The notes under the pieces: model-generated
Told to the model about the DNA's origin: nothing
Seen by the model: the letters and a program-made list of their open reading frames with translations, nothing else
Databases searched by the model: none
Position numbers and translations under genes: made by a program
Source of the DNA: a virus
IMG/VR virus record: IMGVR_UViG_3300030104_005616
Coordinates: 2,158 to 47,409 of that record
Reading direction: 5' to 3' (one strand)
Length of the DNA: 45,252 nucleotides
In this document: positions 3,219-38,205 of the stretch, in pieces
How the letters are laid out: every line of letters starts with the position of its first letter
Position numbering within the stretch: position 1 is the stretch's first letter

Positions 3219-4211
3219 TCAAACAACCCTTAGTTTGGAGGAGTCCGGTAAATACCTTCCGGTAAGCCCAAGACGATCCTTGTTCTTCGTCCAGTAACCT
3301 TGTAAGTTCAAGGGGATATCTGCCCTTGTACTATCCAGAATCTTTATATAAGTGTCTATGGTTTTTTGATAAACCTCTGGGCTTGAATTCTTCGCCAAGT
3401 AGTCGTATAGTGAGTAGTATTTCTTTGTCTGTTCTTCATCAATTGGAGAACCATAAAGATTGCCGAGCAACTCAAGAGCATCCTCAACATCACGAACAAC
3501 ATATTCGCCTGATTCTTTATCCCTTACGCCCATACCATGAACAAATGAATACCCTTTGGTATTAAACATGGATAATAACAACTGAGTCCTGTGTAATCCT
3601 TTTAGGTTCTCAACAGGTGTATCGGAATAATAAGCAAACTTCAACCATTTAAGGTTGCCGACCATCCAATCAATTTGGACACCAATGTCCATTTGATCAC
3701 CTTCGGGATTGTATTGAGGAAACAAAGTAAAAATGTTTGAGAACTTTGTTTTCTTCTCAGCGACTTTTATAATGTCTGAATTTTCATTAATATATTTCGC
3801 GATCAACGATAGAAATGCTTTCCATTTGGACATCTCCTCTGTGGCTGTTCTCGCTCTCTTTTTAATTTGATTGTACTTCGTTTCCCATTCTTCGGGATCC
3901 ACATTCCAAGCGGCAAAATCATTAGCATCAACAAGACCATCGGGAAAGAATGATTTGACATCAAAGGCCACATCAATATCGCCAGAATATGCTTTCTTTC
4001 CTACACTGCCCACAGGATTGAATTCGGCAAACTGCTGTGCTTGTTTTGGAAATAGTTTAGTTAGTTCGTCACGATACTTATCAAGTGTTGGCTCTATGTA
4101 TTCTAATGGAATTCTAGCTGTCTCTCCTTTAAATATATTGCCACCTTCGCCTAATACTGCGATGAGTTCTTCTTTGATCATTCTCTTGAGATCATTTTTA
4201 TTTATTTTCAT
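3219..4211 (-). CDS. Nucleotidyltransferase-like protein with N-terminal targeting-type module
   Basis: The 330-aa product starts with the shared module (MKINKNDLKRMIKEELIAVL, then GE). The body carries a minimal nucleotidyltransferase signature: GSVGKKAYSGDIDVAFD at about residues 69-85, i.e. G-S, then D-x-D, the metal-binding pair of the Pol-beta superfamily. A third acidic residue may lie in QMDIGVQIDWMV near 174-185. The substrate is unknown; related domains transfer nucleotides to RNA ends, proteins or small molecules, and some act as toxins. If the N-terminus is a capsid-targeting propeptide, the enzyme would be packaged and injected, like T4 Alt. It ends its operon before a strong terminator. 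Confidence 0.7.
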   Translation of the reverse strand: MKINKNDLKRMIKEELIAVLGEGGNIFKGETARIPLEYIEPTLDKYRDELTKLFPKQAQQFAEFNPVGSVGKKAYSGDIDVAFDVKSFFPDGLVDANDFAAWNVDPEEWETKYNQIKKRARTATEEMSKWKAFLSLIAKYINENSDIIKVAEKKTKFSNIFTLFPQYNPEGDQMDIGVQIDWMVGNLKWLKFAYYSDTPVENLKGLHRTQLLLSMFNTKGYSFVHGMGVRDKESGEYVVRDVEDALELLGNLYGSPIDEEQTKKYYSLYDYLAKNSSPEVYQKTIDTYIKILDSTRADIPLNLQGYWTKNKDRLGLTGRYLPDSSKLRVV

Positions 4212-4431
4212 CTTTGTTCTCCACTTTTACTAAAACATCTGCGGCCATATCGTTTTCATCCATTTCTGGATTAATCCACCTGACTCTGACTATCTGTACA
4301 TCATTTACTGTCTTTATTTCTAAGGCAATTCCAAGATCCCCGCTCATGACCCATGCACCCTCACCTTCAAAGTAAGGAGCATAGAGAACTAAATCTCCAA
4401 CCTCTAAACTATTATAACCCGTTTTGCCCAC
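4198..4431 (-). CDS. Small GDLV-family protein 1
   Basis: A 77-aa protein with the family core LEVGDLVLYAPY near residues 9-20, then short beta-strands (GIALEI, VQIVRVRWI), which suggests a small SH3-like or KOW-like barrel. The start is GTG with no obvious Shine-Dalgarno; a CTATTTA element lies four bases upstream. It overlaps the next gene by 14 bases. One of five paralogues in the window; this one diverges most after the core. Function unknown. Confidence 0.65.
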   Translation of the reverse strand: MGKTGYNSLEVGDLVLYAPYFEGEGAWVMSGDLGIALEIKTVNDVQIVRVRWINPEMDENDMAADVLVKVENKDENK

Positions 4432-16640: not shown

Positions 16641-17600
16641 TTATCTTTGAAAATTTTTTATTAAATTCCATAAGTCCGTGAAATTTATAGATCCTTGGCC
16701 ATCCTCAAAGAGCATTTTTGTGAAATTCATCTTATTACTCTCTGCCTCAAAACTGGCTATGGTGTAGTCAATTTTCTTTCTATTGAGTACCGAAATCGAG
16801 GGGTTATATAGCTGCATGATTGAGTAGTTATTCTCTACGAGCTTTTGGTTCTCGATGATCTTGTTATGTGCAACTTTCTTTTTTTCTACACTCTCGCAAT
16901 ATTCGACCAATTCTTCCAATTCGTACTGTTTCGACTCGGAAAGGAATGCAAAATTTTTGGCGATGGTTTTTAACCCAACACGACCCACTCCCTTGAGGTT
17001 GTCCGAGGCATCCCCTGCAATTGCTCTGGCTAATGCAAAGTTATTGGGGTGAATGCCAAACCTATATGTAATTGTTCCCTGTGTCTCAAGTTCTGCTTGG
17101 ACTGGCCGATATACTGCTGTGTTTTCATCACATAGTTGAAAGAAATCTTTATCGCTTGAGACGATGATCTTCTGCCAATCCTTATAGTGCTTGTGGCGAG
17201 AAACAATTGCGATGACATCATCTGCCTCAACACCATCATAGGTTAGTTGCATTACGGGCAACTCGTTTAAGTACTCAAACAAACGAATCTGTTGGTGGAT
17301 TTTATTTTGCTCTTGGCTCTTTGGATCTAGCTCAATCATGCGACGATTAAAACGAAGAGGTTTTCTACCTTCTTTGTAATTCTCATTCTGTTGTTTTTTT
17401 CTCTGGGAGCCACCAATGCCATCCCAACAAATAATAACCTCATGGGGACGTGCTTGTCGCATAACTTTCTGTAAGGACTTGAGAAAACCTATGGTCCCTC
17501 CGATTGGAATACCGGAAGGATCCATAGTGGGGATAATGACATAACTTCGTATAAACAGGTTAAGAGCATCAATAATTAATAGTCTTTTCTTTTCGCTCAT
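16641..17600 (-). CDS. 5'-3' exonuclease / flap endonuclease (T4 RNase H-like)
   Basis: The 319-aa protein has the FEN-family acidic motifs: LLIIDALNLF (first Asp), GVEADDVIAI, IVSSDKDFFQL and GDASDNLKGVGRVG, the last being the helix-hairpin-helix and metal site. It should remove RNA primers from Okazaki fragments, a job done in T4 by gene rnh. Size matches T4 RNase H (305 aa). Its ATG overlaps the purA-like stop as ATGA, so it is cotranslated with that gene. Confidence 0.93.
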   Translation of the reverse strand: MSEKKRLLIIDALNLFIRSYVIIPTMDPSGIPIGGTIGFLKSLQKVMRQARPHEVIICWDGIGGSQRKKQQNENYKEGRKPLRFNRRMIELDPKSQEQNKIHQQIRLFEYLNELPVMQLTYDGVEADDVIAIVSRHKHYKDWQKIIVSSDKDFFQLCDENTAVYRPVQAELETQGTITYRFGIHPNNFALARAIAGDASDNLKGVGRVGLKTIAKNFAFLSESKQYELEELVEYCESVEKKKVAHNKIIENQKLVENNYSIMQLYNPSISVLNRKKIDYTIASFEAESNKMNFTKMLFEDGQGSINFTDLWNLIKNFQR

Positions 17601-18601
17601 AATCTCTCCGGTGAGTTTGAGAGATAGATGTGCTTGGCTAGCGAGTTTGATTGCCCAACCTTATCAGTAATGAACTCTGTTAATTTGTGGTAAGAAGAAA
17701 ATTCTTTTAACTCTCCTCCACTATAACATTTAAAGATGCCCAATTCTCTAATCACATCACATTTATTAATGACCAAGTGTGTTGTTCCTGTTTTTCTCGC
17801 AGCATCAATCATCATATCAACATTAAGCCAATTACACTTTCTTTTTCGTCCGGTTGTTACTCCAACTTCACCCCCTAGATCGCCCAATTTGGTCAATTCT
17901 TTGTCTTTTAGTAGCTTATCGGGGAATAGTGGGTCCACACCAGAACGAGTGTCATATAGCTTGGCTATGCCCCATATACGGCGAATTTTCTGTGGAGGGA
18001 ACCCAAGGGAACAAGCACCATAGGGTAGTGTAATGGATGAGGTGACATAAGGATAATTACCATGGTCTATATCTAAATAATAACCTTGGGCCCCCTCGCA
18101 AAGAACTTTTCCACTTAATTGTTCATCCCAGATTAATTCTTCTGGGAGAACATCTTTCGCTAACTGTCCAGTTCTAGCCATCTTGTCTGAATAACATGGG
18201 GCGATTCCTTTGGAGGTTGTCCCAAGCTTCTTGGCTAATTTCTTTTTATCTGTTGTTATATGTTTATCTGTTACAATATGTGCTCTCGGAGAAACCTTAA
18301 CCAAAGAAGTATCGAATCCTTTCTCTTTAAGATAGTTCAACTCTTCTTGTAAGGACTCTGGATGTACTACACATTGAGGCCCGATGACTGATTTAATTCC
18401 ATGAAAGACACCAGATGGAATAAGATGTGTTTTAAATTTCTTTCCTTTTAGGAAGACTGTGTGGCCAGCGTTGTTACCGCCAGCCCAGCGGCAAACATAA
18501 TCATATGATTTGTCTTTCGCAAGATAAGATGTTATTTTTCCTTTGCCTGTATCTCCCCAAGAGAGATCGGCAACAATGTCTACATATTGTATTTCTTTCA
18601 T
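17597..18601 (-). CDS. purA: Adenylosuccinate synthetase (PurA/PurZ superfamily)
   Basis: A 334-aa enzyme joining IMP and aspartate, or possibly dGMP and aspartate. The first loop WGDTGKGK keeps the catalytic Asp of PurA, while its Thr equals the residue in the GSTGKG loop I recall from PurZ. NAGHT keeps the catalytic His. GTTSKGIAP, GAQGYYLDIDHGNYPYVTSS, TTGRKRKCNW and NKCD are all present; NKCD supports GTP as phosphate donor. The short length resembles archaeal PurA and PurZ rather than bacterial PurA (about 430 aa). I infer PurA activity raising AMP/dATP supply. It has a good promoter and a GGAGG site and heads an operon with the exonuclease. Confidence 0.92.
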   Translation of the reverse strand: MKEIQYVDIVADLSWGDTGKGKITSYLAKDKSYDYVCRWAGGNNAGHTVFLKGKKFKTHLIPSGVFHGIKSVIGPQCVVHPESLQEELNYLKEKGFDTSLVKVSPRAHIVTDKHITTDKKKLAKKLGTTSKGIAPCYSDKMARTGQLAKDVLPEELIWDEQLSGKVLCEGAQGYYLDIDHGNYPYVTSSITLPYGACSLGFPPQKIRRIWGIAKLYDTRSGVDPLFPDKLLKDKELTKLGDLGGEVGVTTGRKRKCNWLNVDMMIDAARKTGTTHLVINKCDVIRELGIFKCYSGGELKEFSSYHKLTEFITDKVGQSNSLAKHIYLSNSPERL

Positions 18602-26710: not shown

Positions 26711-29700
26711 TTATTTGCTGTAATCGACAGTCCGTTTTTTCCACAACTTTTTACCTGCTTTCTTCTTAGCATTAACTTGAATGGTTTGTCGCAGGGCATT
26801 ATCAACTGCATCGACACATTTAAGATCTCTTGCGGGGGTCTTTGCTGTGATTTCTTCTTCTTCTTGTCTTGTTGTAATAGTTTTTCCATCAATGGCCATC
26901 ATTCTAGATTCTCCATCGCCAGAATATTGAAATAATGCAGTCAATTTAGTATTGTACCCTTGAGGAGATATTGTAGATTCAACCTTAGTTATGGTGTGAT
27001 AACCTCCAATGCCCAACTGGTTGGCCACTGATCTGTTTCGGCCACCAACAGTTGGGTCCCAATGGCTACCCCCAAAGTTTCGAGGGTCAATAAATATTTC
27101 CATACCGGGATAAAAAATTGTATTACCAAAAAGCTCAATATCCACATTATGAACAGCACCAAGTTGCAACAAACCATAGGTCCCTTGGTTATAATACCTT
27201 GCTTCTCGCAAATAAGCCATTTCACTTTTAGAAAATTTTATATTTTTCATAAGGCCGCGATTTAATCCTATGTGAAAATGATATGTGCCATTTTCTTCAT
27301 CTATATATTTCATACCTCTACCTTGATGAGTAGAAGTAAGTGTAGGAGATACTGGATATATTAAATTATAATCATAATACCCTTCCAATGGTACTCTGAC
27401 ACCTTCAATCTCGTCGCCTTGTGGGATTGGAAGACAAGCGTGCCAATCGTCGAATCCGCTACCTGGTGCGTGCCAATTGTCTACATTTATAATGGTTGGG
27501 TCGTAATCAGTATCGCCTTCTTCCAGCATTTCCAAAATGCGATCTTTTATAACACCGAATCTGTCTTCCCATTTGGTTGCATTTTTGTCTTCAGTTTTTA
27601 TCTCCTCATTGGCATCTAATTCGGATGTAAGATACGAGTGTGTAGACCAACCAGTTGGGTAACCAATTCCTCTAATTTGAGTAGTTTGAAACATTAAGGA
27701 AACATCTATTTGTCTATTAATACAAACTTCGGTCATTAAGTCCACAGCAGCTTCTAAAAGATCCTTAATAAAATCCATCAAAGGATAAATCGTTCTTCCC
27801 GATTTTATAACATTATCGACCATCCATTCATTAAAATATTGTGCTGAAATTGGAATATCGGCTATATTTGCTGAGAAGATTGGTTTTTTACTATTATAAT
27901 CTGTATATATGAACGATGACAATAGAGGAACATATCGTTCCATGCCTGGTATACGTTTATGATATTCTAAAGTGCTCTCTTCTTGAGCATCAAAATCTGG
28001 GGGCGGAGCATACATCGGCATATAAAGACAATCCATTACGGTGTGAAGAATGTCTCCTAAGAAATAAAAGCCAACTTCTTTTTGTGTTTTAAAATCTGTA
28101 TCAACGGGAGTAATAAGATGATAATATTTGTCGCCGATTGGTTTTGGGGCTGAAGTGGAATATGATTTTAAATATTCATTTACTTGGTCTCTATTAAAAG
28201 CAACAGATCTATACAAGCCTCTTTCTTTTAATCGCTTTACAATAGAGCCCTGCGCGGCTTTTATAAGTTTTTCTTCTCTTCTTGCTTGTGCTATCCTGAG
28301 AGCATCAATTTCTTCTACTCTACAATCGGAACTATCAAGTAATTTTTTTAATTCATCTTGCATTGAAGCTCTAAAAAATTCTATTTGAGGAGTCGAAAGA
28401 GCATTAACTTTCGCAGTTTTACTTACTGATTCTGCATATGCAGCATAAGTTATTCTAAGTTCAACAGTTCCATCATTTCTAAAGTCTATTTCATGATCTA
28501 TTTTATTCAACAAAAAAGTTTTGTTTACCGTTTCTAAGGCTTTTTTCATTTTAGGCAGTAGATTATTTTTAGAATTTTTTAAGTGTTGCGCCATTACTTT
28601 CGCTGAAAGCTTCTTGCCTTTTTTATTAAACTCTGCTTCTTTATGAGCATTCCGTCTGTTGGCTTCCTTAACTTCTCTACTCCACAATAAATTTTTAAAT
28701 TGCCTGTCATCGCGAATTTGCCACCCAACATCTGCTCTAATTCTAAAGTTTGCTGGTTGGTATTCGTTGGGATGGATAGAATTTGTATTGGTGGGATATA
28801 AAAGTAGGTCAATATATTTATATTCTTTACCCGGCTGGCCTCTGGTTCTTGTTAATTCATCAAACGACTGAAAAAAGAGAACCAATTCGGCATTGATATC
28901 TTTTTTGGCGGTGGCTGGGGTTGTTCCTTCGTATGACCAATTAAAACTTTTAATACCGCCGCCACGGCCTCTTGATATAGTAGAAGCATCTCGAAGGCTT
29001 TTTATTTCATCAGTGGAAACAAAATTTTCAAATATAAATTCTTTTTCAACTTCTTTGCCATTGTTATCAGTTACTCTAAATAATCTTATTTTTGGAACCA
29101 AAGCCGCTTGAAGCTCTGGGGTTAAATCCATAAAGGGTCGGGCTGCAACAACATCGGGGGCGATTAGTATATTAGAAATTTGGTGATATCTTCCTCCAGA
29201 TTCACCAAGCATATGAAAGCGATCACCAAAAGGAGTCACAACATAACCAGATTCAGTTTTCTTTCTATGTATTGTAAAAAACTCTTGACCGGTTTTTGTG
29301 GGTCTTGGATCGGGTCCCAACTGGTTTTCTTGCACGGCCATCATATCAATTATATCTTCATGAAAAGCATCCCTAAATGCTTCAAGATTTGTCAACAACA
29401 GACATTGATCAATATTTTTTGCTCTTTGTTGTAATAATTCTTTTATTTCTTCGGGATCTAAATCATCATCATCAGCATCAGGAACAGGCGATGGTAAATC
29501 AAACTCGAATGGTGTATTGGCATTAAGACCGACTTTACCGGGTGCAATGCCTTCTGTTTCAAGTGCTGCTTTAATCTCATCATTGCTCATTTTGGCTCTC
29601 TTGCCATAAAGAACAATAGCAAAACGCTGGACACATTGGGTCACCGTTTGTTGGTGACGAAGCCATTCATTAACTTTTACTGCGGCTGAGTTTACAGAAT

Positions 29701-31870
29701 CTAACCATATCTGTAATATATAATATTCTCTAAGAACACTATCTTGTGCATCGGGCATTTCATCCATATACAAAGTTACTTGAGATGCAGCGTCTTTGTT
29801 TGAATAGTTATTTTTGATTTGTGTTTCATACCACTTGACCCTTTCCTCAAATGCTTCCCATTCTTTGGTAAGGCATTGCATAGCATAACTCAAAGGTTCA
29901 AATATTTGTTTACCAAGGATATGATCGTCTTTGGAGGGGAAATAGTTTGAGAATGTGGTCCCTCCTGGGCCCGGAAGATCGTTAAGGACTGCTTGACGCA
30001 TCCCATCCATCAAATTTGACATATTGTTAGCTGGGTTAAAATCTAAAATAGTGTGTTCTTCATCTATCTCGATCCAAGGATCAATGTAGGGGCCGTATGG
30101 TTCCCTATTTTTTTCGGTATCATAACCAGAAGTGTCTAAAACATCTGTAATAACTTTGTCAAGCTCGCCATTCCAAACACTTTCTCCTCTGTTTTGAGGG
30201 CCAGCATTTCGCCCTCTTTTGTAACCTGGCTTTGATGACCTCATCCATTCATACATAACTGATTCTTCTGGAAGTACCGGCACATCGGTTTGTGCAAAAG
30301 CTTTTCGATAATCCGTTGTGAGAGCGGTAGGTTCCATAAACCATGTTCCCAAAGCTCGCTCATTGTATTCACCAATAGAATCTATGACATCTGGGGCGAC
30401 TGGCCAATTGTTTAAGTAAGACCCATTTCCGGCCATTTGGTCGGTGCCGAAACTTGGGTCATCAGAGGTTGGCGAACGAGGTGTTACAGCCCAAGATTTA
30501 TTTCTCAAATCCCAAATTTCATAAAACAAGCGGTTTTTATCACTTATTTTAGCTTTTCTTTCCGCTCTGGAAAGGTCTTTCCCGTAGGTTTCACCGATTG
30601 TTGAAAGCCTATAGTTATCTTGGCCAAATTTGTATTTTCTAAAAACCAAAGTGAGAGCATGAGTTTGTAAACTTGGGCCGACTCTGAGGGTTGTTACAAA
30701 AGGAGAATATTGAGATACGATTCCTTTCGTATCATAAGTGGTAATTGGAAAAACCTTATTAGCCCATGGTTTTGATGTTGGGGCACCATGAGTAATGAAA
30801 TGAGCAAAAGTCTTCTTTGTTATTGGAGACCCAATTAGTTCTTCCAAAACTTTATAAGAGTCCACATTTTTCGGACCCTCTTTTGCGACGGCTTTCTCAT
30901 AATGTTTTTGCCAATATGCAAGAACTTCTGGTGGATGACGATCATAAACATTATATTTTGAAGTAGTATCTCTGGTTGTAGAACCCATAAGGTTCATAAA
31001 TTCAAGATCATTTTCGCCGTAATACTGGCCGCCCATCAGCAAAAATAATCTTCTTTCAGTGTCATCTTCAAAAGACGGAGATTCGCCCAAATGTTCCATA
31101 AATAATTTACACAGATTTGGAACATTAAAGTTATCTTGTTTACCGGGGCCAATTGTTGCTCCACCAGCAATGCTGTAGGCACCAAAGAAAATTGGAGCTA
31201 TACGATCTTTAAAAAATTCATCGTATGTGGATATATTATCTTCGGTCTCAAAAATACCAACAAACCGACCTTGACCATACAATGGGGTTTCGTTGGCTGC
31301 TGTATATCCGCGAGCTTTTGGTACAAAATTAACATAATTAAGATTCCAGTCGCTCGCATAGGTCTGTGTCTTATCAATTTGAAGCTCTTCTGGGATGTCA
31401 TAATCATACGAATCATATTGCCCGTTAACATCAATTTTTATATTGCTATAATATTCTAAAACATAAGTAGTAAACCATGGATCGTCATAAGGGTTACCAA
31501 CAAGCTCTTCGTTAAGAAGAAAACCAGAAATTTGGGCACCACCCAAAGTAGCATTAAAATTTTCAGCAGTGATCGTGTCGCCATGGCGATATTGAAAATC
31601 ATTGTCATCTTCGTTGCCATACCTCCATGGTTTCTTAAATGAAGAAATCCCCGCTGTGTTTTGATGTGCTGTTGGGTTTTTACCATCCCACCATTTTTCA
31701 CCTTCAATTCTAGCTGTGCCTTCTGCGAAGGTTTCATATGTTGCCTTGCTAAACCGAGTAGCACTTATATTAAAAGCCTCAATAGGACGCACACCCTTGG
31801 CGGCCTTTTCAGTCATAAATTTGATTAATTGCTTCAAAAATGTAGAATTTTCTGGATTTCCTAAAGACAC
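26711..31870 (-). CDS. Very large baseplate/hub-type structural protein
   Basis: The 1719-aa protein is the longest in the window. The C-terminal part (about residues 1540-1680) reads like the end of hub proteins of the gp27/gpD group: NTIFYPGMEIFIDP, then LGIGGYHTITKVES and an SPQGYNTKLTALF strand. The middle has long helical and coiled regions rich in Glu/Gln/Lys (about 680-900). The N-terminus is acidic and aromatic. I infer a central baseplate protein, possibly with hub and wedge domains fused. The GTG start overlaps the gp53-like stop (TAGTG). It lies where T4-like phages have baseplate genes. Confidence 0.72.
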   Translation of the reverse strand: MSLGNPENSTFLKQLIKFMTEKAAKGVRPIEAFNISATRFSKATYETFAEGTARIEGEKWWDGKNPTAHQNTAGISSFKKPWRYGNEDDNDFQYRHGDTITAENFNATLGGAQISGFLLNEELVGNPYDDPWFTTYVLEYYSNIKIDVNGQYDSYDYDIPEELQIDKTQTYASDWNLNYVNFVPKARGYTAANETPLYGQGRFVGIFETEDNISTYDEFFKDRIAPIFFGAYSIAGGATIGPGKQDNFNVPNLCKLFMEHLGESPSFEDDTERRLFLLMGGQYYGENDLEFMNLMGSTTRDTTSKYNVYDRHPPEVLAYWQKHYEKAVAKEGPKNVDSYKVLEELIGSPITKKTFAHFITHGAPTSKPWANKVFPITTYDTKGIVSQYSPFVTTLRVGPSLQTHALTLVFRKYKFGQDNYRLSTIGETYGKDLSRAERKAKISDKNRLFYEIWDLRNKSWAVTPRSPTSDDPSFGTDQMAGNGSYLNNWPVAPDVIDSIGEYNERALGTWFMEPTALTTDYRKAFAQTDVPVLPEESVMYEWMRSSKPGYKRGRNAGPQNRGESVWNGELDKVITDVLDTSGYDTEKNREPYGPYIDPWIEIDEEHTILDFNPANNMSNLMDGMRQAVLNDLPGPGGTTFSNYFPSKDDHILGKQIFEPLSYAMQCLTKEWEAFEERVKWYETQIKNNYSNKDAASQVTLYMDEMPDAQDSVLREYYILQIWLDSVNSAAVKVNEWLRHQQTVTQCVQRFAIVLYGKRAKMSNDEIKAALETEGIAPGKVGLNANTPFEFDLPSPVPDADDDDLDPEEIKELLQQRAKNIDQCLLLTNLEAFRDAFHEDIIDMMAVQENQLGPDPRPTKTGQEFFTIHRKKTESGYVVTPFGDRFHMLGESGGRYHQISNILIAPDVVAARPFMDLTPELQAALVPKIRLFRVTDNNGKEVEKEFIFENFVSTDEIKSLRDASTISRGRGGGIKSFNWSYEGTTPATAKKDINAELVLFFQSFDELTRTRGQPGKEYKYIDLLLYPTNTNSIHPNEYQPANFRIRADVGWQIRDDRQFKNLLWSREVKEANRRNAHKEAEFNKKGKKLSAKVMAQHLKNSKNNLLPKMKKALETVNKTFLLNKIDHEIDFRNDGTVELRITYAAYAESVSKTAKVNALSTPQIEFFRASMQDELKKLLDSSDCRVEEIDALRIAQARREEKLIKAAQGSIVKRLKERGLYRSVAFNRDQVNEYLKSYSTSAPKPIGDKYYHLITPVDTDFKTQKEVGFYFLGDILHTVMDCLYMPMYAPPPDFDAQEESTLEYHKRIPGMERYVPLLSSFIYTDYNSKKPIFSANIADIPISAQYFNEWMVDNVIKSGRTIYPLMDFIKDLLEAAVDLMTEVCINRQIDVSLMFQTTQIRGIGYPTGWSTHSYLTSELDANEEIKTEDKNATKWEDRFGVIKDRILEMLEEGDTDYDPTIINVDNWHAPGSGFDDWHACLPIPQGDEIEGVRVPLEGYYDYNLIYPVSPTLTSTHQGRGMKYIDEENGTYHFHIGLNRGLMKNIKFSKSEMAYLREARYYNQGTYGLLQLGAVHNVDIELFGNTIFYPGMEIFIDPRNFGGSHWDPTVGGRNRSVANQLGIGGYHTITKVESTISPQGYNTKLTALFQYSGDGESRMMAIDGKTITTRQEEEEITAKTPARDLKCVDAVDNALRQTIQVNAKKKAGKKLWKKRTVDYSK

Positions 31871-32934: not shown

Positions 32935-35454
32935 TTAGGGCTTGACATGGGCTGATGCGATACGACCTTCGAATAAATCAGTTGTTGCTTTTCCATCAAG
33001 CTGTATTTTTAAAACCTGGCCGTTTTCCTTTTCTTTTTGGCTTGAGAAATAACCTCCAACAGTGTCAATAAATTTTCCAAGATTTCTGCTCATGGCAGCA
33101 CCAGCGGCTCCCTTTGTTAATTCACCGGCAGCTTGGCCAGTTGTAACAAGAGCGATGTTTGCTATTGTCGATTGTATTTCTGCATTTAAAGAATTTTTAC
33201 TCTCTTCAAGACCCTTACCAATTGCAGCGAATGTCTCTTGCAATGCTTCCTTGTTGTCTCTTAAGTCTTGTAATTTTGTTGCTAAATCTCCTATCTTTTC
33301 AGCACTTTTGGTTAACTCATCCATATCCATTTCGGGCTTTGCTTTATCTTTTGAAGTTGACATAAGCATTCCAACACCAAGTGTAGCACCCATGGTTGCA
33401 GCTAAAATACCTCCTAGGACCATTCCATACCTACTTGCTTCCAGCGACTTGGCAGCTATGGCGAGAACCTTCAAAGCAGCGGCCATTGCCCCAATTGAGC
33501 CGACCATAGCATAGATACCTAAAGAGACATCCGAAAAGCCAGCACCTACTTGTTTTAATAATACTATACCTTGAATCATAGTCTTAAACAAATAAGCCAG
33601 AGAGAATGTTATTAAAGCAATAGAGGCAGCAGCGGTGCCAATAACTAAAGCAACACCGCCCATAGAAACGCTGAGGCTTGTTATACCAACACTAGATGCT
33701 GTCCCAGCGGCACCTATCTGTGTAATTGCTGATGCTACAGATCTACCAAGACCTTGGATTGTTTTTCCTGATACTGCTCCGAATATTCTTATTGATCCCG
33801 CCATTTGAAGCATATTCCACAATGCTCCACCCAAAGAAAGTAGAAGTCCTGTGCCAGCAATCATCCATGGGTTTACATCTTTAAGCCATATTAAAAATTT
33901 TCCAAGACCGTCAACAATTCCCTTTATTGACTCAATCATGCCATTTTTTTGTAAATTGACCGCAAAATCAGCAAATATAAGTTTGATTTTTTCCATCACA
34001 TCCAAACCAGCTTTCATTCTATCTTGCAGTGCCTTTTGATTCTTCGCTTCTTTGGCTTGCTCTTTTTGCATTCTTTTGTACTCTCCAACATTCATACCCA
34101 ATATTCTACGAGCTTCATCCAAATTTTTAATATCTAATTGGTTTGCAATCGCTTGTTGTGTGAATTTATCAAGATTTTTAAATGCGACACCAGTTTTTTG
34201 TATACCCTTTATAACATGTTGAATTCTTTTATCATGATCCATCATCATTAGATTGTTTCCAGAAAAACTTGTTCCCAAAATGGCATTCATTTTAGCCGCT
34301 GTTTTAGCAGAATCCGCAAATGTGTCAAATTTGTTTGCTATACCCATCATAGTATCAACTTCAACACCAGCGGCTGATGCTTGAGCGGCAATATCTTTGA
34401 ATATTTTAACTGATTTCTTGCCATAAACTGCAAGGACGGAAAGGGTTTTATTATAATCTTTTGTAATCTGTGATGCTGTTTTTCCGAGAGCATTACCAGA
34501 CATGGCAAGTTCACGGGTCATATCGCCAGCGGCGGTGGCGCCGATATCAAAGCTTTTTGTCAATGATAATATTGTTTGTGATGAATCGTCAGTAGAAACA
34601 CCAATTTCATTAAGACTCGATACTGTATCAATTAGCCCTTGTTGTGTTTTTGCGGTCAAAGCTGGGAATTGTGATAAACTCATTCTTAAAGATACAGCGG
34701 CCTTCTGAGCATCGTCTGCTGAAACACCGAACTGCCTTAATCTATCATTAGTTGAAGCTATAGCAACGTCAAAATCTCGACTGAACCCTGTTGTCTTTGT
34801 GAAAGCGGCACCGGCTTTATCAACTGCAAACATCATTTTGATTGTCTGCTCTACAACTTTAGATAGTATTGAAATCCCTATATTTAAAGGATTAAATGTC
34901 TCTGTAAAACCCTTAGCTAAACCCTTTAAGCCGCCTGATGATGATGCAAGCTTGCCCATTTCCGCTATGTTCTTAGCAAATTTGTTTCCCGATTTTGATA
35001 AAAGACCTAATTTTGTAGCTGCGTCTTCAAAAAAGGGCTTTGACTTTTGAAGTGCTTCTTTATATGCTGGTCCAAGATTATCTATCTTATCTTTATAGGC
35101 TTGTGCAATCATCGCATCGGCATCTAACCCGGCAGATTCAATCTTTTTTCTTGTAGCTTCGTCTAATTTATCAGTAGCCTCATAAGCATCACCAGTGATT
35201 TCTTTAAATTGCCTTAACACTTCAAGATTAGAATTATAAGCAGATAAAGAATCTCCCATAATTTCGTTTACTCTTGCTTCACTAGCAGCAAGTTGAATAG
35301 TCTGAGCATTGACTTCTTTTGTGGCCTCAGATAAGCCTTTCATTGCCGACATAGATTTCTGAATAGCTTCAGCGTATTCTTTATCAGTAATAGTGCCTTT
35401 TTGTTTGGCCTTTGTTAGATTTTCAATTTCTTCAATTGTTTTATCGCTCGCCAT
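32935..35454 (-). CDS. Tail tape measure protein
   Basis: An 839-aa protein, largely helical, with coiled-coil Ala/Lys/Glu stretches at both ends and three to four hydrophobic segments between about residues 530 and 710 (for example AGTGLLLSLGGAL and MVLGGILAATMGATLG). This is the hallmark of tape measure proteins, which set tail length and are injected or help pore formation. Position after the tube and chaperone-type genes and before the baseplate genes is correct. Longer than T4 gp29 (590 aa), so the tail should be longer. Confidence 0.85.
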   Translation of the reverse strand: MASDKTIEEIENLTKAKQKGTITDKEYAEAIQKSMSAMKGLSEATKEVNAQTIQLAASEARVNEIMGDSLSAYNSNLEVLRQFKEITGDAYEATDKLDEATRKKIESAGLDADAMIAQAYKDKIDNLGPAYKEALQKSKPFFEDAATKLGLLSKSGNKFAKNIAEMGKLASSSGGLKGLAKGFTETFNPLNIGISILSKVVEQTIKMMFAVDKAGAAFTKTTGFSRDFDVAIASTNDRLRQFGVSADDAQKAAVSLRMSLSQFPALTAKTQQGLIDTVSSLNEIGVSTDDSSQTILSLTKSFDIGATAAGDMTRELAMSGNALGKTASQITKDYNKTLSVLAVYGKKSVKIFKDIAAQASAAGVEVDTMMGIANKFDTFADSAKTAAKMNAILGTSFSGNNLMMMDHDKRIQHVIKGIQKTGVAFKNLDKFTQQAIANQLDIKNLDEARRILGMNVGEYKRMQKEQAKEAKNQKALQDRMKAGLDVMEKIKLIFADFAVNLQKNGMIESIKGIVDGLGKFLIWLKDVNPWMIAGTGLLLSLGGALWNMLQMAGSIRIFGAVSGKTIQGLGRSVASAITQIGAAGTASSVGITSLSVSMGGVALVIGTAAASIALITFSLAYLFKTMIQGIVLLKQVGAGFSDVSLGIYAMVGSIGAMAAALKVLAIAAKSLEASRYGMVLGGILAATMGATLGVGMLMSTSKDKAKPEMDMDELTKSAEKIGDLATKLQDLRDNKEALQETFAAIGKGLEESKNSLNAEIQSTIANIALVTTGQAAGELTKGAAGAAMSRNLGKFIDTVGGYFSSQKEKENGQVLKIQLDGKATTDLFEGRIASAHVKP

Positions 35455-35457
35455 CTA

Positions 35458-35808
35458 TTAACCCTCATCTTTGAAAGGCCACTTTAATCCTGTTGTGTTT
35501 TCAAAGTTTTGTACTGCTGTATTTAGTTCTTCGCGAGCTTTTACAGTTTGAAAGTGTTCCTTGCCAAATTGCGAATAAGCATCAAGATAGTTTTTTTCAG
35601 CAACAATAGCTTGAGCGTATGATTTTACATCTTTTTGTTTTCCACGGATAATGAATTTTGGCCCTTCGGCATCTTCTTCATTGAGGTTGGCAACAACTTT
35701 AACATCATCCCCATACATCATCTTTAAAAGACTCTTAGACCAAGAACCAAATGTCTCCATCCAAGTTTCTTTTAAAATTATTCTATCGGATAAATCAATA
35801 ACTAACAT
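35458..35808 (-). CDS. Hypothetical tail-assembly protein
   Basis: A 116-aa protein from the ATG at 35808 (GGGAG site, nine bases); an in-frame TTG at 35823 has no good site. It is helical with a short N-terminal strand (MLVIDLSDRIILKETW) and a charged middle, and ends in a Trp-containing motif, TTGLKWPFKDEG. It sits directly before the tape measure gene, where chaperones or tail scaffolds are common. I do not recognise it. A CTATTTA element lies 24 bases upstream, just after a terminator, so transcription may restart here. Confidence 0.65.
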   Translation of the reverse strand: MLVIDLSDRIILKETWMETFGSWSKSLLKMMYGDDVKVVANLNEEDAEGPKFIIRGKQKDVKSYAQAIVAEKNYLDAYSQFGKEHFQTVKAREELNTAVQNFENTTGLKWPFKDEG

Positions 35809-35849
35809 GCAAAATACTCCCAACTTACAAATAAATAGTTTTAATAAAA

Positions 35850-35869
35850 AAATGCCCCGAAAGGCATTT
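35850..35869 (-). terminator. Terminator hairpin after the gp51-like gene
   Basis: A 7-bp stem, AAATGCC/GGCATTT, with a 6-base loop; on the minus strand it is followed by TTTTTATT. It follows directly the stop at 35871 and may reduce transcription of the distal tail genes. Confidence 0.82.
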
Positions 35870-35870
35870 A

Positions 35871-36098
35871 TTATCTTCGTTTATTAGCTTTGTCTAATTC
35901 TTTCTTTTCATCTTTAAATTGTTTTTGTAATCTATTAAGAAACCATAATCTCAAACCTACTGGTAGATTATACATTTCCATAAACGACCAACCGCCATGA
36001 TGCTTTAAAAGAAAAAACTGCTCATAAATAGCCTCAATGTAATTATCGGTCAGGCCAAAAAAAGTCAGCCCCGAAGGGCACCTCCAATTCTTGCTCAA
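35871..36098 (-). CDS. gp51-like hub-assembly / tail chaperone protein, probably made by frameshift
   Basis: The reading frame gives 75 aa: FFGLTDNYIEAIYEQFFLL, then GGWSFMEMYNLPVGLRLWF and a Lys-rich end. I recall the GGWS-F-x-E-x-Y-x-L-P core in small proteins called gp51-like in T4-related phages. The only starts before the conserved part are a TTG with no Shine-Dalgarno and later internal codons. The frame overlaps the end of the gp26-like gene at a run of seven T, in +1 relation. I therefore infer that it is expressed as a C-terminal extension of that protein, like lambda G-T or Mu-type tail chaperones. If so, the separate product may not exist. Confidence 0.7.
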   Translation of the reverse strand: MSKNWRCPSGLTFFGLTDNYIEAIYEQFFLLKHHGGWSFMEMYNLPVGLRLWFLNRLQKQFKDEKKELDKANKRR

Positions 36099-36894
36099 AG
36101 CCGCACGCGGTACAAGAATACTCGTTAATAACCTTTACATCAGGACAAGCTACTCTATAACAATTTTTAAGAAAACGAGAATCCCTAGTTGGCAAATTGT
36201 CAATAAAGTTGTCAATCACAACCCTTTCAGTGTGCCCTTGAACCGATACAATCATTCTTTTATATTGATCGGTTAAAGCAGAATCTGCTAGCTTGCCCTT
36301 TGCTTTATTAGTGGCCAGTTGAGACAAAAATATTTCATCATCTCCGGTCAATAATTTAAACTGAACTGTAAACTTTGTTAATGGCATTGTGGCACTGAAA
36401 TAACCTTCTGGGGTCTGTGTAAGTCCTAGTTTTTCATCGACAGATGATTCATGTGTCTTAACTTTATTAAGATCAAAACTATAATCAGAATTCTCCCCAC
36501 ATGCTGGGCAAGATACTTTTGTATGATAATCGGAACCATAACCAGAAATACGTGCAGCAATAATAATTGCATTCCTATCCCCTACTAAAAGCGAAGAAGC
36601 TTTGAATGTCTTATCAACAATTATGTTATCTAAAAACCTTTCTATAGCAATCCCTTTCTTTAGAAGAGTCTTGGAAGTTAAAATATCTTCATCCTTTGCC
36701 GTCATATACCGGATCTCAATTGTATCTTTTCCGTGCATTGGGTGGTCTTCACCATATCCAAGCCCTTTAGACGGCAAGTCAACAAATTCTGTTGGTGCAA
36801 CAAAGTGCAATGGGCTTTTGGCCTCTACAACCTCCGATACGGGTGCTTCTGCTTGAGGAACGGCACCTGTTCGTTCCATATTATTTCTACTCAA
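36043..36894 (-). CDS. gp26-like baseplate hub protein with two zinc ribbons
   Basis: The 283-aa protein contains VDLPSKGLGYG, IEIRYMTAKDEDIL and LLVGDRNAIIIAARISGYG, the typical series of the T4 base-plate protein family (gp26). Two Cys pairs, CPAC near residue 133 and CTAC near 265, look like zinc ribbons. The last residues read through a run of seven T where a second frame begins. The gene stands between the tube genes and the tape measure gene, the position of tail-assembly chaperones in other phages. It probably acts in hub or tail assembly. Confidence 0.85.
   Translation of the reverse strand: MSRNNMERTGAVPQAEAPVSEVVEAKSPLHFVAPTEFVDLPSKGLGYGEDHPMHGKDTIEIRYMTAKDEDILTSKTLLKKGIAIERFLDNIIVDKTFKASSLLVGDRNAIIIAARISGYGSDYHTKVSCPACGENSDYSFDLNKVKTHESSVDEKLGLTQTPEGYFSATMPLTKFTVQFKLLTGDDEIFLSQLATNKAKGKLADSALTDQYKRMIVSVQGHTERVVIDNFIDNLPTRDSRFLKNCYRVACPDVKVINEYSCTACGFEQELEVPFGADFFWPDR
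36057..36063 (-). other. Candidate +1 frameshift site (seven T)
   Basis: On the minus strand the gp26-like frame reads GAC TTT TTT TGG; sliding forward one base gives TTT TTT GGC, the gp51-like frame. Both tRNA-Phe positions keep perfect pairing. GGAGG lies 17 bases upstream (36081-36085) and GGGG about five bases upstream, either of which could stimulate slipping. Confidence 0.55.
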
Positions 36895-36915: not shown

Positions 36916-37656
36916 TTAGATTCTTGTAAATGTTGCATAATCGTAACCCACAACAATTTCAATTGAAACTAGATCATCGCTACTATAATCAAGATCGCCA
37001 TAATTAATTGATTTTATAAATGAATTAACTAAAGTCCAGGTTCTAAAAGCTTTTCCATCATCATTCAACTGGGTTATTTGAAAATCATTTGCATCAGTCG
37101 GCACAGCATTTTTAATTTTTAATTTTGATGCTTCCTCAACTGCGGCAGCAAATTCTGCTTTTTGTTCTGCGGCAGTTTTAAAACTTGGATCTGTCTTGCG
37201 CAACTCTTCAATGTAAGTGCTCCCAAGCAATGAATCTCGACCTTCATTCTTTTGCATTTCTTGGCTGGAGTTGAAATCTTGAATTTTTTTTGCGGCAGAG
37301 GTTGCTTCGGCGGTTCTTAGGTTGGCTCTTACTCTAGTTTCTAAGTATTTAACGACCCCATCTTCCTGGCCAGCCCCGCTTTCAGACATTGTGCTTTGAA
37401 CATTCAATATCTTAATAATTGAGTCAATCGACTCCTTCACATCAACAATATTAATTGTAACATCACTCCATGTTGGAACACCCGGCACTTTATATTTTTG
37501 ATTTAAAAGCTGGTATTCCGATGTATTGATTTCAAATGAAGGCAGAGTTACAGTGTTTACATACCACCAATTGGTGCCTTGAGGTCCCGCCGTGAATCTA
37601 TATTTTCTCGCGGGAACTGCGGCTCCTGATCCAGATGCGTTGCTCCAAAAAGCCAT
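36916..37656 (-). CDS. Tail tube protein paralogue with helical insert
   Basis: A 246-aa protein sharing with its neighbour the start MAFW-x-x-x, R-x-Y-R-F, T-x-T-L-P-S-F-x-[IV], then W-S-x-V near 62-65 and the end GDLDYSSDDLVSIEIVVGYDYATF. Residues about 90-190 are an inserted Lys/Ala/Glu-rich helical region absent in the other paralogue. Two tube-like genes in a row suggest that one forms the regular tube and the other a special ring or decoration. Spacing between them is nine bases. Confidence 0.82.
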   Translation of the reverse strand: MAFWSNASGSGAAVPARKYRFTAGPQGTNWWYVNTVTLPSFEINTSEYQLLNQKYKVPGVPTWSDVTINIVDVKESIDSIIKILNVQSTMSESGAGQEDGVVKYLETRVRANLRTAEATSAAKKIQDFNSSQEMQKNEGRDSLLGSTYIEELRKTDPSFKTAAEQKAEFAAAVEEASKLKIKNAVPTDANDFQITQLNDDGKAFRTWTLVNSFIKSINYGDLDYSSDDLVSIEIVVGYDYATFTRI

Positions 37657-37665
37657 TTAAACCTC

Positions 37666-38205
37666 TTAATCTGCTTTAAAACGTTCTGTACCTGTTGTTG
37701 TACAAGTTGCCCAATCATAACGAAGTGTCAATTCAACTTCTTTCAAGTCATCGCTACTGTAATCCAAAGATCCAAATGTTGCAGCTTGAATGAATGGGTT
37801 TTTCAATTCCCATGCTTCAACAACATCACCTTCAGCATCTAAGATTTCAATCTTAACTGCTCCTAGACCTGCTGCTTTGCTTTTAGAAATGGTTTTCTTG
37901 TTAGCTGCTTTTGCCTCGGTAGATGGAATGTTGTAACCACTTTTAACTAACATGTCAGTCAACAAACCTGTCGCATCAGGAGAGATTGGATCTACAAGTG
38001 TCATTGAAACTGTTGACCAAGAAACTCTGCCTGGGAAATAGTATTTGTTATCCATATGATTATGTTCAACTTCTGAAACATCAAATGAAGGAAGGGTAGC
38101 GGTTTTAGCCCACCACACCGTAGAATTGGCTCCGAAAGCGACCAATGTAACTTTAAATCTATAATTTCTTTTTGCCTCTGATTCGTGGCTAGCCCAAAAT
38201 GCCAT
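37666..38205 (-). CDS. Tail tube protein (gp19-like)
   Basis: A 179-aa protein of the same size as T4 gp19 (163 aa). It shows the tube pattern TATLPSFDVSEVEHNH, FPGRVSWSTVSMTLVDP and the end SLDYSSDDLKEVELTLRYDWATC. It should polymerise as hexameric rings inside the sheath. It follows the sheath gene, as in T4. AGGAG Shine-Dalgarno. Confidence 0.88.
   Translation of the reverse strand: MAFWASHESEAKRNYRFKVTLVAFGANSTVWWAKTATLPSFDVSEVEHNHMDNKYYFPGRVSWSTVSMTLVDPISPDATGLLTDMLVKSGYNIPSTEAKAANKKTISKSKAAGLGAVKIEILDAEGDVVEAWELKNPFIQAATFGSLDYSSDDLKEVELTLRYDWATCTTTGTERFKAD

Follow-up and report, generated by a model that had tools for sequence, protein, structure and literature searches.

A probable +1 frameshift at a sense codon, preceded by a conserved hairpin, in the tail assembly chaperone gene of a marine T4-like phage lineage

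Genes of the tail assembly locus

The DNA analyzed here (hereafter the window) is a 45,252-nt stretch of the 48.6-kb IMG/VR virus record IMGVR_UViG_3300030104_005616, for which a DNA similarity search against named phages returned no match. All features described below lie on the minus strand, where a tail sheath gene is followed by two tail tube (gp19-like) genes (36916..38205; matches to phrog_4542 with 2.8e-21 and 6.7e-24), and these adjoin, on its upstream side, a gene for a 283-aa protein (36043..36894). We call its product TAC-N, as it represents the short chaperone, i.e. the gp26/gp51-type N-terminal part. The gene starts with TTG, with GAGGTG ahead of it, and its frame (the 0-frame) ends with a TAA at 36045..36043. 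A second open reading frame of 75 codons, which carries the +1-frame extension (35871..36098), overlaps it by exactly 56 nt (36043..36098), in agreement with the coordinates and frames of the original prediction, which was also right that the first start codon of the gp51-like frame is a TTG inside the gp26-like gene, at 36098. From the junction discussed below to its stop, this frame encodes 61 aa beginning with GLTDNYIEAIYEQFF (35871..36056); we refer to this extension as TAC-C and to the predicted fusion of both parts as TAC-NC.

Immediately after the TAC-C stop, a terminator scan finds a strong terminator-like hairpin (35850..35869), followed by an ORF of at most 121 aa (35458..35823) and an ORF of 839 aa (32935..35454), both without a family match; by its position, the latter is a probable tape measure protein. 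The earlier placement of the chaperone pair just upstream of the tape measure gene thus holds for the order of the genes, but not for direct adjacency, as the hairpin and the small ORF lie between them. The slot after the chaperone is occupied by an annotated tape measure protein in Flavobacterium phage immuto and Listeria phage LIS04, and in Mel-JY01 a small ORF likewise lies between the chaperone and this slot. With a terminator-like hairpin of this strength ahead of it, the tape measure ORF may have separate transcription.

TAC-N matches PF12322 (T4_baseplate) with an E-value of 3.5e-15 and 56.7 bits versus a cutoff of 24.5, and phrog_150 with 7e-18. A profile of TAC-C compared with the C-terminal parts of T4-like chaperones gave an E-value of 4.5e-5 over 54 columns, versus 0.25-0.47 for shuffled columns; the predicted long form adds to the short one a small C-terminal domain that has homologs in other T4-like chaperones. 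The order tail tube - PF12322 gene - tape measure is found both here and in annotated relatives. Full-length profile comparisons with the single T4 gp26 and gp51 sequences were weak, so that the link to the T4 family rests on PF12322. The best match of the TAC-N model among solved structures is the HK97 tail assembly chaperone 2ob9, at a weak Foldseek E-value of 0.54; the superposition (76/104 residues, rmsd 3.0) has a Z-score of 5.5, below 8 and the highest among the chains compared. The TAC-C model has a pLDDT of 82. From the order of the genes, PF12322 and the profile comparison of TAC-C, we place the product in the tail assembly chaperone family of T4-like phages that Vladimirov, Gautam and Davidson (2022, Virology 566:9; as cited in PMC10885494 and PMC12846349) identified, and both forms would presumably act as chaperones.

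Two other genes of the window deserve a comment. At 17597-18601, near the genes for RNR, ThyX, Tk and pol A, lies a gene for a 334-aa adenylosuccinate-synthetase-like protein (PF00709, 3.7e-82) that matches phrog_1211, "2-aminooxy adenylosuccinate synthetase". Its SWGDTGKGK motif indicates that the Asp of PurA appears to be retained, and it scores 113 bits with the NCBIfam PurZ model, under the cutoff of 300; it could be a PurZ0-like or Z-DNA-related enzyme. Adjoining the baseplate-like genes is an ORF of 1719 aa (26711-31870), a large unknown protein with no PHROG match.

The junction between the two frames

The +1-frame ORF can be entered from the TAC-N frame only at GAC TTT TTT TGG, within the 0-frame sequence GAC TTT TTT TGG CCT GAC CGA TAA, in which a run of seven T spans 36063..36057. 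In the conserved junction TTT TTT TGG (36055..36063; TTY YTT TGG in its general form), the candidate slipping codon is the YUU at 36060..36058, which would occupy the ribosomal P site with TTY before it in the E site and UGG after it in the A site. The window contains 31 T7 runs, fewer than shuffled sequence does, and TTTTTTTGGCCT occurs in it once, against 0.03 expected. What exceeds chance is the conservation of the junction and not the T7 run alone.

This conservation was assessed in two sets of loci that have some contigs in common. The first, found via the upstream protein, comprises the window and 159 IMG/VR relatives with identity down to 43%, and TTY-YTT-TGG is in phase at 160 of 160 loci. 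The second was fetched with the downstream domain only, to avoid circularity, the junction not being used; here, too, the motif is in phase at all 80 loci, and at every one of them a 0-frame ORF longer than 300 nt leads up to the junction and runs through it. The slip sequence is TTTTTTTGG at 149 loci of the first set, TTTCTTTGG at 9 and TTCTTTTGG at 2 (69, 9 and 2, in the same order, in the second set), and a tree built without the slip codons implies at least four independent changes between the variants. The A-site codon is UGG at every junction and the 0-frame stop follows 9 or 12 nt after it in both sets; the same motif is present in the distant phages Mel-JY01 and immuto. The invariant part of the junction is YTT-T, whereas the T-run varies among relatives. 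In this respect the original prediction, which took the run of seven T as the point where the frames join, requires a correction: the run is where it was placed, but the slipping unit is probably the second codon, YUU. A T-run disrupted without loss of the overlap had been named as evidence against a frameshift; such cases occur, yet YUU-U is retained in all of them, so that they refine the model instead of refuting it.

The codons around the junction are constrained beyond the encoded protein. In a non-redundant set of 64 relatives (pairwise identity 49-89%), the TAC-N gene shows background levels of synonymous variation apart from its start region and its last ~10 codons; among the latter, fixed or nearly fixed codons include GAG (60/60 relatives in which Glu is encoded), GAC (62/64), two TTT codons (64/64 and 57/57) and CCT (64/64). 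Past the overlap, the protein encoded in the +1 frame is conserved (consensus GLTDxYMExVYEQFFxLKHHGGWSFxEAYNLPVGLRxWF; 59-63 aa in the nearer set, 59-91 aa overall) and the synonymous sites are free; both frames thus code, and the signal lies at and 5' of the slip site. Since synonymous sites are unconstrained directly after the overlap, there is no sign of a 3' signal, and a downstream stimulator was rejected. Two coding frames under selection and a junction kept across lineages are what is expected of a programmed frameshift, and the conserved ~60-aa domain lacks a conserved start codon.

The last point bears on the explanation that TAC-C is a separate gene, translated from its own start in the overlap, possibly with the help of the GGAGG element described below. 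Some ATG, GTG or TTG is indeed present in the +1 frame upstream of the slip site at 138 of 160 loci, a TTG at -18 occurs in 44 of them, many with a suitably spaced GGAGG ahead, and in the jumbo phage LR756511 (at about 4210-4430) the C-terminal domain has its own start in a TAATGG stop-start overlap. However, the start positions have nothing in common, 22 of the 160 loci have none at all, and the window has TCG at -18. Moreover, the slip site is precisely where protein conservation sets in, a separate start would leave the constraint on TTT TTT and GAC without a function, and the 0-frame gene continues through the junction at each of the 80 downstream-anchored loci. We regard independent initiation as very unlikely. 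Still less credible is a junction created by slippage of RNA polymerase along the T-run or by a sequencing error in the homopolymer: either can arise from T7 runs, but the same arrangement occurs in independent lineages with runs of just 3-4 T (TTTCTTT, TTCTTTT), and the phase is identical in well over 160 separate contigs in which the 0-frame stop is conserved. The comparative evidence strongly supports the original prediction of a programmed +1 frameshift that would give a short and a long tail assembly chaperone, and the comparison of the overlap and the T-run in relatives that it called for has yielded a junction in phase throughout both sets.

A hairpin upstream of the slip site

The 18 nt that precede the slip codons fold into a hairpin of 4-5 bp, which, like the GGAGG next to it, was absent from the original prediction. 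In the window the hairpin is GCCC-UUCG-GGGC (36068..36079); the 18-mer has a folding energy of -7.5 kcal/mol, and the stem ends 4 nt (UGAC) ahead of the T-run and 7 nt ahead of the slipping codon. The 84 distinct 18-mer haplotypes have a mean folding energy of -5.54 kcal/mol, compared with -1.52 (SD 0.16) kcal/mol for re-samplings in which synonymous codons were drawn according to the genes' own codon usage. Full 5-bp stems are formed by 54 of the 84 haplotypes, versus 11.6 +/- 2.6 expected and a maximum of 19 in 500 re-samplings, and no other among the 251 six-codon windows of the gene deviates as far as the segment with the hairpin (z -7.9). Stems such as UGCCC-UUUG-GGGCA, UCCGU-UUGGC-GCGGA, GUUCC-AUUU-GGAAC and UGCCG-UUUA-CGGCA occur in four registers, with 4-7 nt between the stem end and YUU, and on the tree the best register has changed at least 38 times. 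At least 4 pairs are kept at 149 of 160 loci. The hairpin is thus selected beyond protein coding. In LR756508, a distant jumbo phage, AAC UUU CUA directly follows a hairpin of 7 bp, CGCAUCC-CGUU-GGAUGCG.

The 5' side of the hairpin adjoins a Shine-Dalgarno-like GGAGGT (36080..36085), and GGAGG is found in this place at 137 of 160 loci. As the hairpin falls short of 4 pairs in every register at 11 of the 160 loci and GGAGG is missing from 23, neither element is obligatory. With the hairpin unfolded, GGAGG lies 19 nt from the P-site codon, too far for the geometry of prfB; it comes close once the hairpin is folded.

A short GC stem followed by U7 superficially resembles an intrinsic terminator, and the hairpin and T-run could in principle terminate or attenuate transcription instead of stimulating a frameshift. 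Yet they fail the scan that finds a clear terminator at 35850..35869. The U-run is broken in some lineages, a spacer persists and stems move freely between registers, and we consider this reading quite improbable. An Rfam search over the hairpin and T-run gave only a sub-threshold match to suhB (20.9 bits versus a gathering score of 41), which we take as chance.

A role of the hairpin as a frameshift stimulator is suggested by published engineered analogues. A hairpin designed to adjoin the E site stimulates the +1 shift at CUU-UGA in E. coli extract, and at CUU-UGU when cysteine is limiting; it mimics an internal Shine-Dalgarno helix and counters backward shifts (PMC6321510). In the literature searched, no natural +1 site with an upstream hairpin is described, which is not proof of absence; so far such sites have been shown only in engineered constructs.

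Direction of the slip, mechanism and relation to known systems

At all junctions of both sets, YUU in the P site can re-pair one base forward, onto UUU, and the TTT-CTT-TGG variant reproduces the CUU to UUU slip of prfB. The original prediction noted that a -2 slip reaches the same frame, with one Phe more in the product. In a T7 run, tRNA-Phe can indeed move two bases back with full pairing, and phage Mu uses a -2 shift (PMC5009743), which resembles ours in target frame and function and differs in direction. However, at the loci with TTC-TTT-TGG (L110, L128, L239 and L262) the -2 move would place tRNA-Phe on UCU, with a mismatch at the middle base, while the +1 move still reaches UUU. In addition, an upstream hairpin should impede backward movement (PMC6321510), and there is no downstream signal. 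The TTC-TTT-TGG variants separate the two directions and argue against the -2 shift, which we consider improbable. A slip of the first codon (TTT to TTT/TTC), also considered, suits most loci and fails at the TTC-TTT-TGG ones (UCU); the second codon is therefore preferred as the slipping codon.

We conclude that, very probably, two forms of a tail assembly chaperone are made from one start codon, a +1 slip yielding TAC-NC and the hairpin probably promoting the slip. The majority of ribosomes would produce TAC-N and stop at the TAA soon after ...DFFWPDR. A minority, while YUU occupies the P site and the UGG of the A site still awaits its tRNA, would move one base forward onto UUU and read on through GGC-CTG-... 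into the 61-aa C-terminal domain; the predicted trans-frame peptide is ...GADFFGLTDNYIEAIYEQFF... The sequences themselves show two coding frames, their junction, the direction (through the variants) and a hairpin under selection; that ribosomes slip, how often they do so, and what the hairpin, GGAGG and the two products do is inferred. Once the ribosome has passed, the short hairpin would re-form 4-7 nt 5' of the slipping codon and weaken pairing in the E or P site in favor of the forward slip, probably acting as the internal Shine-Dalgarno helix does in prfB. The GGAGG 5' of the hairpin may help, possibly through base pairing to 16S rRNA that makes the ribosome pause.

The likeness to E. coli prfB (RF2) consists in the move of a P-site YUU onto UUU (CUU-UGA in prfB) and in a helix just behind the ribosome. 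However, the A-site codon of prfB is a stop and here it is the sense codon UGG; the helix of prfB is formed between mRNA and 16S rRNA, whereas here an mRNA hairpin takes its place or supplements it; and the feedback by RF2 is missing from the phage site. In its mode of action the phage site would resemble prfB, without belonging to the prfB type. The engineered upstream-hairpin sites (Huang, Cho and Chang 2018, PMC6321510) likewise have a hairpin adjoining the E site and a +1 shift, but their stem has 12 bp and was studied in vitro, while the natural stems have 4-5 bp and lie 4-7 nt from the P-site codon. Lambda G/GT is also a short and a frameshift-extended chaperone, with a shift that is programmed at a low level (PMC5009743) and that is -1, not +1.

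With the T4-like chaperones (gp26/gp51) our system shares PF12322, the place before the tape measure gene and the existence of a short and a long form. In T4 these are two genes, and gp51 carries its C-terminal extension within one ORF; in P-SSM2, S-PM2, HTVC008M, phiM12, Vi01 and RaK2 the extension is in the -1 frame, in contrast to the +1 frame entered here at YUU-UGG behind an upstream hairpin. SP-15, LIS04 and Streptococcus phage vB_SagM-GXN1 have the extension in the +1 frame as well, with other sequences, and in all three the frameshift is unannotated. Their candidate slip sites are UUU-CAC, UUU-UUA, and UUU-CGU or NCC-CGA; the UUU-CGU of the Streptococcus phage is similar to the PA-X site of influenza virus. 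A clear hairpin was not seen in two of the three.

Frameshifted pairs of tail assembly chaperones are known, also from T4-like phages; what appears to be new, and is well supported by the sequence comparisons, is the +1 shift at a sense codon together with the upstream hairpin. The abstract of Vladimirov et al. reportedly mentions frameshifting in several T4-like groups, and that study may already list groups with a +1 shift. It seems to us somewhat more probable than its opposite that a +1 shift at the sense codon YUU-UGG, driven by a hairpin that re-forms behind the ribosome, has evolved in a widespread lineage of marine T4-like phages. Such a site would be the deeply conserved natural equivalent of the artificial upstream-hairpin sites and a form of the prfB signal that does without rRNA, and it would have replaced the -1 shift by which other T4-like phages make the same protein.

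Sites of +1 frameshifting have no general motif, and the case for upstream-hairpin stimulation rests on engineered constructs. Evolution has supplied ~100 different versions of the site described here, whose stems vary in register and lie at defined distances, and the requirements for spacing, stability and the slip codon can be read from their sequences. Annotation usually misses the extension, as in Listeria phage LIS04 and Flavobacterium phage immuto. The T4-like phages would appear to have three routes to one and the same chaperone pair: a -1 shift, a +1 shift and two genes.
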